From assembly GCF_024757985.1 (NCBI RefSeq), contig NZ_CP103289.1:4712001-4776000 (forward strand): 64,000 nt of DNA, given 5' to 3'. This DNA is from Cellulomonas sp. NS3. GTDB taxonomy: Bacteria > Actinomycetota > Actinomycetes > Actinomycetales > Cellulomonadaceae. Shown here in pieces: positions 4,747 to 29,413 of the stretch; positions within the stretch are counted from its first letter, which is position 1, and every line of letters starts with the position of its first letter. Both the position numbers and the translations under genes were made by a program. The notes beneath the pieces are model-generated. The model worked only from the letters and a program-made list of their open reading frames with translations. It made no database searches and had not been told where the DNA came from.

Positions 4747-6069
4747 ATGACCACGGCCGACACACTCCCCGCCACCTTCGAGGGCGAGGTCCTCGTCCCC
4801 GGCTCGTCCGCGTACGACGCCGCGCGCACCGTCTGGAACGGCGCCGTCGACCGCCGCCCGGCATACGTGGTCCGGTGCGCCGGCAGCGACGACGTGCGTG
4901 CTGCCGTGCGCGTCGCGCGCGAGCTCGGCCTGCCGCTCGGCGTCCGCGGCGGTGGGCACAGCGCCGCGGGGTGGGCCGTGCCGGAGGGCGGGCTCATGAT
5001 CGACCTGTCCCGGATGCACGGCGCGGCGGTCGACCCCGCCGCCCGGACGGCGCAGGTGCAGGGCGGGGCGCTGCTCGGGTCGCTCGACGCCGCGGCTCAG
5101 GCGCACGGGCTCGCGACGACCGCGGGGATCGTGTCGCACACCGGCATCGGTGGGCTGGCGCTCGGGGGAGGCGTCGGCTGGCTCGCGCGGCAGGTCGGGC
5201 TGACCTGCGACAACGCCCTCGGGTACGAGGTCGTGACCGCCGAGGGCGAGCTGGTCCGCGCGACGGCCGACGAGCATCCCGAGCTGTTCTGGGCCCTGCG
5301 CGGCGGCGGCGGCAACTTCGGCGTCGTAACGCGCTTCGACCTCAGGCTGCACGACACCGGGACGCAGGCGCTCACCGCCGAGGTCGACCTCGACGCCGGG
5401 CGCGGGCTCGACGCGCTGCGGACCTGGCTGACGCGAGCCCACGAGGCCCCTCGGCGCGCGACGCTCTACGCGGAGGTCCGTGCCGGCGGGCCGCTCACGC
5501 TCGGCCTCGTCTGGGTCGGCGCACCCGACGACGCGGCGCCGCTCGTCGCCGGGCTCGACGGCCTCGGCACCCCCCTGGCCCGCCGGGTCACGGCCCTCCC
5601 CTACCTCGACCTGCAGCGGCGGTCGGACGTCGGGGCGGCGCACGGCTACCGGCGCTACGCGAAGAGCCACTACGTCCGGGAGCTGCCGGACGCGGCGCTC
5701 GAGGCGTTCCTCGCCCACACCGAGGCCGACGTCGGTGCGGCGAGCCTCGTCGCGTACGGCGGCGCCATCGCGGACGTCGAGCCGGGCGCGACGGCGTTCG
5801 CGCACCGCGACGCGCGGTTCGAGTACGGCGTCGGTGCGCGGTGGGAGGACCCCGCCGACGACGAGCGCCACGCCGCGACGTGCCGCCGGCTCGCCGCGAC
5901 GATCGAGCCCTGGAGCGTGGGGGTGTACGTCAACGCGCTCGGCGCCGAGGGAGCCGCCGGGGTGCACCGGGCGTACGGGGCCGCGACCTACGGCCGCCTC
6001 GCGCAGGTGAAGTCGGCGTGGGACCCGGAGAACGTCTTCCGCCTGAACCAGAACATCCCGCCCGCCTGA
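4747..6069 (+). CDS. FAD-linked oxidase, berberine-bridge-enzyme type
   Basis: A 440-residue flavoprotein of the FAD_binding_4/BBE family. The N-terminal FAD domain (about 35-210) shows VRGGGHSAAGWAVPEGGLMIDLS, with the His that usually anchors FAD covalently, and the GGVGWLARQVGLTCDNALGYEVVTA stretch typical of the family. RGGGGNFGVVTRFDL is the second FAD-contacting motif. The C-terminal BBE segment ends NYVNAL-like (YVNAL) and NVFRLNQNIPP, the standard family tail. There is no signal peptide, so it is cytoplasmic. Such enzymes oxidise sugars or secondary metabolites using O2; the substrate cannot be predicted. The second (6-S-cysteinyl) FAD anchor is not seen: the region reads GIVSHTGIGGLALGGG with no Cys, so attachment may be by His only. 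It stands alone, with its own promoter. Confidence 0.88.
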   Translation: MTTADTLPATFEGEVLVPGSSAYDAARTVWNGAVDRRPAYVVRCAGSDDVRAAVRVARELGLPLGVRGGGHSAAGWAVPEGGLMIDLSRMHGAAVDPAARTAQVQGGALLGSLDAAAQAHGLATTAGIVSHTGIGGLALGGGVGWLARQVGLTCDNALGYEVVTAEGELVRATADEHPELFWALRGGGGNFGVVTRFDLRLHDTGTQALTAEVDLDAGRGLDALRTWLTRAHEAPRRATLYAEVRAGGPLTLGLVWVGAPDDAAPLVAGLDGLGTPLARRVTALPYLDLQRRSDVGAAHGYRRYAKSHYVRELPDAALEAFLAHTEADVGAASLVAYGGAIADVEPGATAFAHRDARFEYGVGARWEDPADDERHAATCRRLAATIEPWSVGVYVNALGAEGAAGVHRAYGAATYGRLAQVKSAWDPENVFRLNQNIPPA

Positions 6070-26369: not shown

Positions 26370-27746
26370 CTACGCCTGCATGTCCACGAATCGCGAATAG
26401 TGGCCCTGGAACGCCACTGTGATCGTGTCGGTGGGTCCGTTTCTGTGCTTCGCGACGATCAGGTCCGCCTCGCCCGCGCGAGGTGATTCTTTCTCATAGG
26501 CATCCTCGCGATGCAAAAGTATTACCATGTCGGCATCTTGCTCGATAGAGCCAGATTCGCGAAGGTCGCTCATCGCCGGCCGCTTGTCGGTCCGCTGCTC
26601 CGGGCCACGATTCAGCTGCGAGATCGCGATGACCGGAACCTCGAGCTCCTTGGCGAGCAGCTTGAGCGCACGCGAGAACTCCGAGACCTCCTGCTGGCGG
26701 GACTCGACGCGCTTGCCCGACGACATGAGCTGGAGGTAGTCGATCACGACGAGCTTGAGGTCGTGACGCTGCTTGAGCCGCCGGCACTTGGCGCGGATCT
26801 CCATGAGCGACATGTTCGGCGAGTCGTCGATAAAGAGCGGCGCCTCGGAGATCTTGCCCATCGTGGCGGCGAGCTTCTGCCAGTCGTCCTCGCCCATCTG
26901 GCCCGTGCGCATCTTCTGCAGGTGGATGCGCGCCTCGGCGGACAGCAGACGCATGGTGATCTCGTTACGGCTCATCTCGAGCGAGAACACGACCGCGGCC
27001 TGGTTGTGCTTGATCGCCGCGGACCTGACGATATCGATTCCCAACGTTGATTTTCCGATTGCCGGCCGCGCAGCGATGACAATCATCTGCCCCGGGTGCA
27101 GCCCGTTGGTCAGCCGGTCGAGGTCCGCGAACCCGGTGGGCACGCCGATCATGCCCTCGCCGCGGTGTCCGGCGGCCTCGATCTCGTCGACCGTGCCCCC
27201 GATGACCTCGCCGAGGCGGTGGTAGTCCTCGGTGGTCCGGCGCTCGGTGACGGCGTAGACCTCGGCCTGGGCGTTGTTGACGATCTCGTCGACGTCGCCG
27301 CCGTCGGTCGCGTACCCGAGCTGGACGATGCGCGTCCCGGCCTCGACGAGCCGGCGCAGGACGGCCCGCTCGCGCACGATGCGCGCGTAGTACCCGGCGT
27401 TCGCGGCGGTGGGGACGGCCGAGATGAGCGTGTGCAGGTACGGCGCCCCGCCGATGCGGGTCATGTCGCCGCGCTTGGTCAGCTCGTCGGCGACGGTCAC
27501 GGCGTCGGCCGGCTCGCCGCGGCCGTACAGGTCGAGGATCGCGTCGTAGATCGCCTCGTGCGCCGGGCGGTAGAAGTCGGTGCCGCGCAGCTGCTCGACG
27601 ACGTCGGCGATCGCGTCCTTCGAGAGCATCATGCCGCCGAGGACGCTCTGCTCCGCGGCCACGTCCTGCGGAGGGGTCCGGTCGTAGCCGCCTCCGGCGC
27701 GTACGCCATCGGACGGCGCGCCGTACTCGAGCTCCTCGATCGTCAC
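26370..27746 (-). CDS. dnaB: Replicative DNA helicase DnaB
   Basis: The 458-residue hexameric helicase that unwinds DNA at the fork and binds primase. The N-terminal domain begins RTPPQDVAAEQSVLGGMMLSKDAI, the linker follows, and the RecA-like C-terminal half has Walker A ARPAIGKST, the H2 strand VVFSLEMS, Walker B LVVIDYLQLM, the H3 glutamine in VIAISQLNRGPEQR and the arginine finger region KHRNGPTDT. No intein is inserted, although one is common at this Walker A. GTG 27746 was chosen because a GGGGGA site precedes it; GTG 27764 gives six more residues but no site. It is at its normal place left of rplI in actinobacteria, but here its 3' end touches IS-end repeats. Confidence 0.96.
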   Translation of the reverse strand: MTIEELEYGAPSDGVRAGGGYDRTPPQDVAAEQSVLGGMMLSKDAIADVVEQLRGTDFYRPAHEAIYDAILDLYGRGEPADAVTVADELTKRGDMTRIGGAPYLHTLISAVPTAANAGYYARIVRERAVLRRLVEAGTRIVQLGYATDGGDVDEIVNNAQAEVYAVTERRTTEDYHRLGEVIGGTVDEIEAAGHRGEGMIGVPTGFADLDRLTNGLHPGQMIVIAARPAIGKSTLGIDIVRSAAIKHNQAAVVFSLEMSRNEITMRLLSAEARIHLQKMRTGQMGEDDWQKLAATMGKISEAPLFIDDSPNMSLMEIRAKCRRLKQRHDLKLVVIDYLQLMSSGKRVESRQQEVSEFSRALKLLAKELEVPVIAISQLNRGPEQRTDKRPAMSDLRESGSIEQDADMVILLHREDAYEKESPRAGEADLIVAKHRNGPTDTITVAFQGHYSRFVDMQA

Positions 27747-27775
27747 AGACTTCCCCCGACTCACCGTGCACGTTG

Positions 27776-27791
27776 TCGAACATGTGTTCTA
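27776..27791. promoter_or_regulatory. Candidate LexA (SOS) box upstream of dnaB
   Basis: TCGAACATGTGTTCTA matches the actinobacterial SOS box TCGAAC-N4-GTTCGA in 11 of 12 fixed positions. It lies 30 bp before the dnaB start, over the presumed promoter (TAGAAC in the leftward direction). SOS control of dnaB is inferred. Confidence 0.5.
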
Positions 27792-27901
27792 TCAGGAGAT
27801 ACTGACAAGCTCCTGCGTCGTCCCCCTCGGACGCCCCCTGGAGCATCATCGCCCGCGCCGTACGCGAGGCTAAGGTGCTGCCTCCGGACACGCCAAGAAC
27901 G

Positions 27902-28052
27902 CCGTCCACAGGCCCTGGGGACAACCCGACGGTGCTTGTGGACCCCCCTCACGGCGCTGTGCACAGGTCGTGGACAGGCCTGTGGACAATGGTGGACGAG
28001 GGCCTGAAAGACGCCTCTCACCGGGGGAGACGCCGTGCACCGTTGTGGACGA
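27902..28052. promoter_or_regulatory. Cluster of DnaA-box-like 9-mers between dnaB and the MATE gene
   Basis: TGTGGACAA at 27981-27989 is a perfect DnaA box (reverse of TTGTCCACA). Around it lie TGTGGACGA (28044, 8/9), and 7/9 matches at 27902 (CCGTCCACA, opposite strand), 27937, 27958 (TGTGCACAG), 27969 (CGTGGACAG) and 27991. Seven near-boxes in 151 bp, six in one orientation. Possibly a DnaA titration or dnaB control region (inference). Confidence 0.55.
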
Positions 28053-28060
28053 GGAGAAAG

Positions 28061-29413
28061 TTGGTCAGGAGTTCACAGGGTGGACGTTCGGCGTCCAGCC
28101 TCGACCGGCAGGTCCTCGCGCTCGCCGTCCCCGCCCTCGGCGCGCTCGTCGCCGAGCCCCTGTTCGTGCTCGTGGACTCGGCCGTCGTCGGGCACCTCGG
28201 GACCCCCGAGCTCGCCGGGCTCGCGCTCGCCTCGACCGTCCTGGTGACCGTCGTCGGGCTCTGCGTCTTCCTCGCGTACGCGACGACCGCGGCCGTCGCA
28301 CGACACCTCGGCGCGGGCGACCGGGTCGCCGCGCTGCGGCTGGGGATCGACGGGATGTGGCTCGCCGCGGGGCTCGGCGCCGTCCTCGCGCTCGCCCTGG
28401 CGATCGCCGCGCCGTGGGCCGTCGAGGCGCTCGGGGCCGAGGGCGCCGTCGCCGGGCACGCCGTGACCTACCTGCGCTGGTCGGCGCCAGGGCTGCCCGG
28501 GATGCTCCTGGTCCTGGCCGCGACCGGCGCGCTGCGAGGGCTCCTCGACACCCGCACGCCGCTCGTCGTCGCCGCGTCGGGCGCGGTCGCCAACGCGGTC
28601 CTCAACGTCGCCCTCGTGTACGGCGCCGGGATGGGGATCGCCGGGTCGGGGCTCGGGACGGCCGTCGCGCAGCTCGGCATGGCGGCGGTGCTCGTCGTCG
28701 TCGTCGTGCGCGGGGCCCGGGCCGCCGGCGCTCCCCTCTCCCCCGCGGCGGCCGGCATCCTCGGGCAGGCCCGCGCCGGCGCGCCGCTGCTCGTGCGGAC
28801 CGTCTCGCTGCGGCTCGCGATCCTGCTGACGGTCTGGGTCGCGACCGGGCTCGGCCCTGCCGTGCTCGCCGGGCACCAGGTCGTCAACGCGGTCTGGGGT
28901 CTCACCGCCTTCGCGCTCGACGCGCTCGCGATCGCCGCGCAGGCCCTCGTGGGGCACGCGCTCGGCGCCCGCGACGTCGACCGGGTCCGCGCCGTCCTGC
29001 GGCGCACGGTCACGTGGGGCGTCGCCGCCGGCGCGGTCCTCGGCGTGCTCATCGCCGTGGCGTCGCCGCTGATCGCCCGGCCGTTCACGTCGGACCCCGC
29101 CGTGCGCGACGCCGTCGTCGCCGGGCTCGTCGTCGCCGCCGTCGCCCTCCCCCTCGCCGGCTGGGTGTTCGTGCTCGACGGCGTCCTGATCGGCGCGGGC
29201 GACGGGCGCTACCTCGCGTGGGCGGGCCTCGTGACGCTCGCCGCGTACGTGCCCTGCGCGCTCGCCGTCCGCGCCTGGGCCCCCGACGGCGCGGCCGGGC
29301 TCGCGTGGCTCTGGGCGGCGTTCGCGGGCGTGTTCATGCTCTCCCGGGCCGCGACGACGGCGCTCCGGGCGCGGGGCACGGCCTGGATGGTCGACGGCCC
29401 GACGGCGCGCTGA
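28061..29413 (+). CDS. MATE-family efflux transporter (DinF/NorM-like)
   Basis: A 450-residue, 12-helix cation-coupled exporter. It opens LDRQVLALAVPALGALVAEPLFVLVDSAVVGHLG, the family's first helix, and the two halves repeat the fold (DRVRAVLRRTVTWGVAAGAVLG begins a late helix). Long hydrophobic Ala/Val/Leu runs cover most of the chain. The TTG at 28061 follows a GAGGAGAAAG site and gives the usual family length; an ATG at 27989 is in frame but would make the DnaA-box cluster coding and add basic, non-conserved residues. It converges with rplI over a hairpin terminator. Substrate unknown. Position next to dnaB is common in Micrococcales. Confidence 0.85.
   Translation: MVRSSQGGRSASSLDRQVLALAVPALGALVAEPLFVLVDSAVVGHLGTPELAGLALASTVLVTVVGLCVFLAYATTAAVARHLGAGDRVAALRLGIDGMWLAAGLGAVLALALAIAAPWAVEALGAEGAVAGHAVTYLRWSAPGLPGMLLVLAATGALRGLLDTRTPLVVAASGAVANAVLNVALVYGAGMGIAGSGLGTAVAQLGMAAVLVVVVVRGARAAGAPLSPAAAGILGQARAGAPLLVRTVSLRLAILLTVWVATGLGPAVLAGHQVVNAVWGLTAFALDALAIAAQALVGHALGARDVDRVRAVLRRTVTWGVAAGAVLGVLIAVASPLIARPFTSDPAVRDAVVAGLVVAAVALPLAGWVFVLDGVLIGAGDGRYLAWAGLVTLAAYVPCALAVRAWAPDGAAGLAWLWAAFAGVFMLSRAATTALRARGTAWMVDGPTAR

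Follow-up and report, generated by a model that had tools for sequence, protein, structure and literature searches.

The locus between dnaB and a divergent transporter gene in Cellulomonas sp. NS3 raises the question of what a dense cluster of DnaA boxes does outside the origin of replication. Three readings were offered in an initial annotation of this DNA: the boxes could titrate DnaA like datA, control dnaB, or form a displaced or extra origin element. The window analyzed here was a stretch of 64,000 nucleotides (contig NZ_CP103289.1, positions 4,712,001 to 4,776,000), and the coordinates given below are those of the window unless the chromosome is named. A single contig of 4,776,279 bp, which opens with dnaA, makes up the chromosome, and when this was taken as circular the cluster lay about 36 kb from dnaA, in agreement with the distance from the origin given at first.

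The replicative DNA helicase gene dnaB occupied 26370..27764 on the minus strand (TIGR00665, 556 bits), and GGGGGAAG ahead of the GTG at 27746 suggested that dnaB starts there and not at 27764. Divergent from it, a MATE-family efflux transporter gene was located at 28061..29413 on the plus strand (TIGR00797), the start of which was suggested by GGAGAAAG ahead of the TTG at 28061. Beyond MATE, rplI and ssb followed, both on the minus strand. On the usual reading of both genes, with dnaB starting at 27746 or 27764 (minus) and MATE at about 28061 (plus), the gap that holds the boxes was non-coding, as had been claimed. The dnaB of the window was without an intein-like split. The DnaB matches of G002, G003, G004 and other relatives were split near residues 217-250 and lay in long frames (about 630-1550 aa); these splits are probably inteins, variable even within the genus.

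The cluster spans 27902..28052 on the minus strand and consists of seven sites with starts 10-21 bp apart plus one distal site. Nine matches with at most two mismatches to TTGTCCACA, the DnaA box given for Streptomyces and M. tuberculosis in the part of PMC4285127 considered, were found on eight sites, including one exact match, two with one mismatch and six with two mismatches; two of the last six stem from a single palindromic site that matches on either strand (27957/27958). From the dnaB side, the sites were the promoter-proximal box CCGTCCACA (27902..27910, plus, two mismatches), the box TTGTCCCCA (27916..27924, minus, one mismatch), the DnaA-like box GGGTCCACA (27937..27945, minus, two mismatches), the palindromic DnaA-like box CTGTGCACA(G) (27957..27966, no strand assigned), for which TGTGCACA was recurrent in the family alignment, the DnaA-like box CTGTCCACG (27969..27977, minus, two mismatches), the perfect box TTGTCCACA (27981..27989, minus), the DnaA-like box TCGTCCACC (27991..27999, minus, two mismatches) and the distal box TCGTCCACA (28044..28052, minus, one mismatch), which lies 63 bp from the perfect box and at the MATE ribosome-binding site. 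The initial annotation had counted one perfect box and six near-boxes in about 150 bp, which was borne out with one more near site, and its six boxes in the same orientation corresponded to a strand bias of seven of the nine matches on the minus strand.

The density of boxes was then determined by counting sites wholly inside 150 bp with at most two mismatches to TTGTCCACA. By this strict count there were 8 sites in the dnaB cluster, 9 at oriC and 7 at a chromosomal locus near 417 kb, against a maximum of 2 in the rest of the window, 4 in chromosome samples (twenty of 20 kb, 400 kb of 4.78 Mb) and 4 in 100 dinucleotide shuffles of the window. The perfect box was present in 13 copies in the genome, so that the cluster is unusual while a single box is not. 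The cluster upstream of dnaB is thus real and far from chance, and it is not the sole cluster outside oriC. The concern that a similar density might occur elsewhere by chance did not hold for the stretches counted, among which only oriC and the 417-kb locus came near it. The E. coli consensus TTWTNCACA was also tried as a search motif and discarded as the wrong consensus for this phylum; with at most one mismatch it matched twice in the window, once at the perfect box, where 3.2 matches were expected, which was no excess over chance.

Several other box arrangements were observed on the chromosome. The second cluster outside oriC (chromosome 417172-417263) contained, within 150 bp, 7 matches with at most two mismatches; a perfect box lies at 418383, and the neighbors of the cluster were a reading frame without a Pfam match and a transglutaminase-like gene. 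At chromosome 5555-5574, a few kb from dnaA, two perfect TTGTCCACA boxes were found with starts 11 bp apart. The perfect boxes at 624721 and 808810 were accompanied by the same near-boxes at nearly equal distances, possibly as a repeated element.

Conservation in related genomes had been proposed as a check, and the region upstream of dnaB was examined in two sets. The first comprised 116 regions: 56 genomes with a dnaB match (59 were searched, NS3 included, and 3 had no match at the cut-off) and 60 class-wide regions. For the latter, 148 genomes were searched and 146 matched; 60 were taken among the matches listed, chosen for unsplit matches close to the N terminus and so as to represent different families, with intein-split genes left out. 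Boxes were scored as TTRTCCACA with at most one mismatch within 500 bp upstream of dnaB, and the reversed motif served as control. At least two boxes were present in 100 of the 116 genomes (control 9) and at least three in 88 (control 0), with a mean of 3.51 boxes per region against 0.39 for the reversed motif; 16 of the 116 regions had fewer than two boxes, five of them zero. The orientation of the boxes was that of dnaB in 315 of 407, and half of the boxes lay 154-277 bp upstream of the aligned dnaB start. The second set was drawn from the best 80 of 582 relatives, from which 4 duplicates were dropped to leave 76 named loci, mostly of Arthrobacter and its kin and of Streptomyces (29/76), with Cellulomonas, Oerskovia, Nonomuraea and Kocuria also included; the two sets may share genera. 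At least two boxes were found in 72 of these 76 loci from the best 80 of 582, against 4 for the reversed control. The boxes are therefore kept in most of the related genomes of both sets.

In the 116 regions, boxes of the same orientation also recurred 63-68 bp apart, which was the commonest long spacing (exactly 65 bp in 19 regions and 66 bp in 15).

When 26 family members were aligned on the dnaB strand, the pattern TTG...TA...T proved to be conserved on the downstream side of the last box. On the basis of this pattern and its conservation, a putative dnaB promoter P1 was assigned on the minus strand, with a -35 TTGGCG at 27891..27896 and a -10 TAGCCT at 27867..27872 separated by an 18-bp spacer. 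The core of the proximal box, read on the dnaB strand as 27910..27904, ends 7 bp before the P1 -35. The pattern was written as TTG-N19..22-TAnnnT, and the distance was taken to the nearest upstream box core. Since it was framed on the 26 aligned members, the own family (36 regions) was no independent test of it; independent tests came from the remaining 80 regions and from the 76 named loci (best 80 of 582). In the own family, 23 of 36 regions had a P1-like match no more than 60 bp past the last box, compared with 1% of shuffles. Over all 116 regions, 62 had a P1-like match within 60 bp of a box, against a mean of 4.5 (max 7) in 30 box-keeping shuffles, and 38 had one at 6-7 bp from a box, against a mean of 0.1 (max 1). 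Matches pointing towards dnaB numbered 28 in the 36 family regions and 42 in the 80 others, while those in antisense numbered 0 and 5.

The box-promoter gaps were quantised. All 62 gaps in the 116 regions were 6-7, 18-20, 29-30, 40-41 or 52-53 bp, with a best period of 11.4 bp (R of 0.95 vs 0.43 at 99.9% of random gaps, under a null that ignores relatedness), and the gaps of 6-7 bp were spread over eight families. In the second set (best 80 of 582), 58 of 76 loci had a P1-like match, with gaps of 6-8 bp (40), 18-20 bp (14) and 39-41 bp (4) and no others; the shuffle control covers the 116-region set. A P1-like match within 60 bp of a box was absent from 54 of the 116 regions and from 18 of the 76 named loci (best 80 of 582). 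Two traits looked for in a DnaA-regulated promoter were observed here, namely several boxes above chance and their consistent placement relative to the -35 and -10.

The phased arrangement was further searched in 59 whole genomes as a box 7 bp from the promoter pattern, with matches assigned to dnaB by comparison with the dnaB positions from the search of the relatives' genomes. A total of 27 matches were obtained, 19 of them at dnaB: 8 of 10 in the inverted-box form and 11 of 17 in the direct-box form, whereas the reversed patterns gave 5 and 5. In the NS3 genome the inverted-box form matched once, at dnaB, and the direct-box form gave zero matches. The search of the dnaA promoter yielded no P1-type match.

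Nearer dnaB than P1, the same alignment of 26 family members contained a conserved TGTCGG...TAGAAC, and in the window a putative second promoter P2, of RecA-NDp/PafBC-like type, was assigned as TTGTCAGTA-N8-TAGAAC at 27786..27808 on the minus strand. P2-like matches (at most two mismatches, TGTC and TA fixed) were detected in sense in 44 of the 116 regions, in antisense in 3 and in 0.8% of shuffles; in the second set (best 80 of 582) they were detected in 44 of the 76 loci, the antisense and shuffle controls covering the 116-region set. The own genome's recA carries TGTCGG-N10-TAGCGT together with a LexA-like box. At the dnaB locus, a LexA-box-like TCGAACATGTGTTCTA at 27776..27791 (no strand assigned) overlaps the P2 -10. 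This box had one mismatch in 4 and two mismatches in 2 of the 6 own-genus regions. Six more members of the family had it with two mismatches at a similar position, and among the remainder of the 56 it was weaker or missing; LexA-like matches with at most two mismatches numbered 8 in the 64-kb window. It was accordingly left out of any class-wide reading. As to P2, the motif resembles that of mycobacterial RecA-NDp/PafBC promoters (PMC8151990, PMC8223512), which is given in the part of PMC8151990 considered as TGTCGG or TGTCAG-N10-TAnnnT. It differs in the last base of the -10, which is C here (TAGAAC; TGTCAG-N10-TAGAAC in the window), and, unlike the mycobacterial promoters, it would be a second promoter of a DnaA-linked region. 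Induction of dnaB by mitomycin C in M. tuberculosis is described in that part of PMC8151990 as partially PafBC-dependent.

Given the high box density, close to that of oriC, the locus might be a datA-like or D78-like titration site, which delays re-initiation by soaking up or inactivating DnaA and at which the adjacency of dnaB is incidental. H24, H69 and D78 are reportedly the names of such clusters in Streptomyces coelicolor. The position on the chromosome is in favor of this explanation. The distance between dnaA and dnaB was measured in 26 complete genomes out of a set of 41; it was 22-131 kb in 25, all with at least two boxes, and 268 kb in G046, which had no boxes. In addition, DnaA boxes in E. 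coli show an enrichment close to the origin (PMC12371093, in the part considered), and clusters near the origin are said to keep initiation from occurring at the wrong time in S. coelicolor and B. subtilis (PMC5742627, PMC4585315, as far as their accounts were considered); in S. coelicolor, a box cluster outside oriC restrains initiation (Smulczyk-Krawczyszyn 2006, as told in these two papers). Like the NS3 locus, that cluster consists of origin-proximal DnaA boxes in an actinomycete; unlike it, it is told as a datA-like restraint on initiation. E. coli datA is likewise a DnaA-box cluster outside oriC, and in the account considered it works through IHF and DnaA-ATP hydrolysis. The NS3 cluster resembles datA in being dense, outside oriC and early replicated. 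Its placement, by contrast with that of a site independent of any one gene's promoter, is tied to dnaB: the boxes are phased to P1, and 19 of the 27 phased matches are at dnaB. Titration has no need of a fixed phase to the dnaB promoter, but such a phase was seen again in many families, and in G052, with about 21-25 kb between dnaB and the MATE-rplI pair, 3 boxes were found at dnaB and none before MATE. The titration proposed at the outset may stand as a side effect of a locus near dnaA, while titration as the sole role, which would call for no fixed promoter spacing, is in our view unlikely.

Because the gap is divergent and the ribosome-binding site of MATE coincides with the distal box, the boxes might control MATE instead of dnaB. 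With MATE and rplI scored as a tblastn match inside the fetched stretch, at least two boxes were present in 68 of 74 regions with MATE, in 22 of 29 with rplI and no MATE, and in 10 of 13 with neither, which means 32 of the 42 regions whose fetched stretch lacked MATE. Among seven MATE matches that are not in divergent arrangement with dnaB, some of which may be paralogues, six had 0 boxes and one had 1 box in 560 bp, and where rplI was apart from dnaB (G046, G042, G057, G052) at most one one-mismatch box was found in about 3.5 kb around rplI. Since the boxes persist without MATE or rplI and number at most one at displaced MATE and rplI, they belong with dnaB. The P1-like pattern also points to dnaB in the counts given above, and control of MATE is very improbable. 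These observations led us to reject as well a titration site held near the origin irrespective of dnaB, as the boxes do not stay at the MATE and rplI genes apart from dnaB. In G046 and G042 no boxes were found at dnaB; seven other box-bearing stretches of G046, G042 and G057 were searched by tblastn for dnaB, MATE, rplI and ssb, without a match, and no relocation was found.

A displaced or extra origin element, the third of the readings first offered, gained no positive support. The number of boxes is close to that of oriC, and an AT-richer stretch of the gap, with 37% G+C over 30 bp, is lower than any in the dnaA-dnaN gap; however, the box-rich dnaA-dnaN gap exists as usual, and the AT-rich stretch coincides with P2. 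Neither GC skew, near zero across the window with repeated sign changes, nor DnaA-trio repeats, found in neither the dnaB-MATE gap nor the dnaA-dnaN gap of oriC, discriminated for or against an origin. An origin function is even less probable than control of MATE. Boxes with at most two mismatches are common (85 in the window), but an artefact of chance or base composition in this GTGGAC-rich genome has a negligible probability in view of the maximum of 4 per 150 bp in the rest of the window, the 400 kb sampled and the 100 shuffles, and of the conservation upstream of dnaB in 100 of 116 genomes and 72 of 76 named loci (best 80 of 582 relatives).

Control of dnaB was the best fit among the three readings, and it drew on the conservation of the boxes, their linkage to dnaB, the quantised spacing to P1 and the published DnaA binding in two mycobacteria. 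In the sections of PMC7738170 considered, the dnaB-upstream region is among five highly enriched with M. tuberculosis DnaA in vitro, the homologs of the same five regions are recovered by ChIP-seq of tagged DnaA in M. smegmatis, and an M. tuberculosis mutant with weaker DnaA binding upstream of dnaB under-expresses dnaB. The mycobacterial site thus has the same position as the NS3 cluster and is bound by DnaA both in vitro and by ChIP-seq, while no box-promoter phasing and no class-wide comparison are reported in those sections. The DnaA regulon of Caulobacter crescentus also includes dnaB, with predicted DnaA boxes upstream (Hottes 2005 as told in PMC8203912); in that account dnaB expression is dependent on DnaA, boxes upstream of dnaB are common to both organisms, and Caulobacter is an alphaproteobacterium. 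By these sources, DnaA was known before as a likely regulator of dnaB in Caulobacter and mycobacteria. What appears new here, at the level of sequence patterns, is the quantised spacing between DnaA box and dnaB promoter over several actinomycete families, and such a phased layout was not found in print among the open-licence PMC literature.

Taken together, the cluster is probably the control region upstream of dnaB, arranged for DnaA to act there as a transcription factor, and DnaA probably sets how much helicase the cell makes. In the mechanism we propose, DnaA would bind the box array upstream of dnaB, as it does in mycobacteria, and would occupy the proximal box and be extended upstream by more DnaA at steps of about 11-12 bp. 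The array, by the geometry of the gaps, could then abut RNA polymerase at P1 on one helix face and contact it. The effect on dnaB is more likely activation, because the boxes flank P1 without overlapping it and because the M. tuberculosis mutant with less binding under-expresses dnaB; this sign is the least certain step, as it is drawn from one mutant in one relative. The supply of helicase would in this way depend on how much initiator there is or on its ATP state. P2, judged by its motif, would let dnaB rise on DNA damage too. Near dnaA as it is, the locus may also bind some DnaA soon after initiation, which would make titration a by-product or secondary role. Several observations speak against control of dnaB: the NS3 cluster has a single perfect box, the box adjoining P1 is weak, in 54 of the 116 regions no box has a P1-like match within 60 bp, 16 regions have fewer than two boxes, and G046, with dnaB 268 kb from dnaA and no boxes, also fits a position-dependent, titration-like role.

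A wider proposal can be put forward tentatively, and we hold it to be possible rather than probable: across actinomycetes, the -35 of the dnaB promoter may be helically phased to a DnaA array, with DnaA as a polymerase-contacting activator coupling the helicase to initiator level and origin copying, the array serving in addition as a DnaA sink near the origin, and a downstream promoter of PafBC type adding damage induction. As a caution for the annotation of such loci, an extra cluster of DnaA boxes need not be a titration site. The quantised spacing turns a binding peak into a testable circuit, in terms of the contact between DnaA and polymerase and of whether helicase supply limits or follows initiation. 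If the proposal is true, it would describe a class-wide feed-forward circuit from initiator to helicase.
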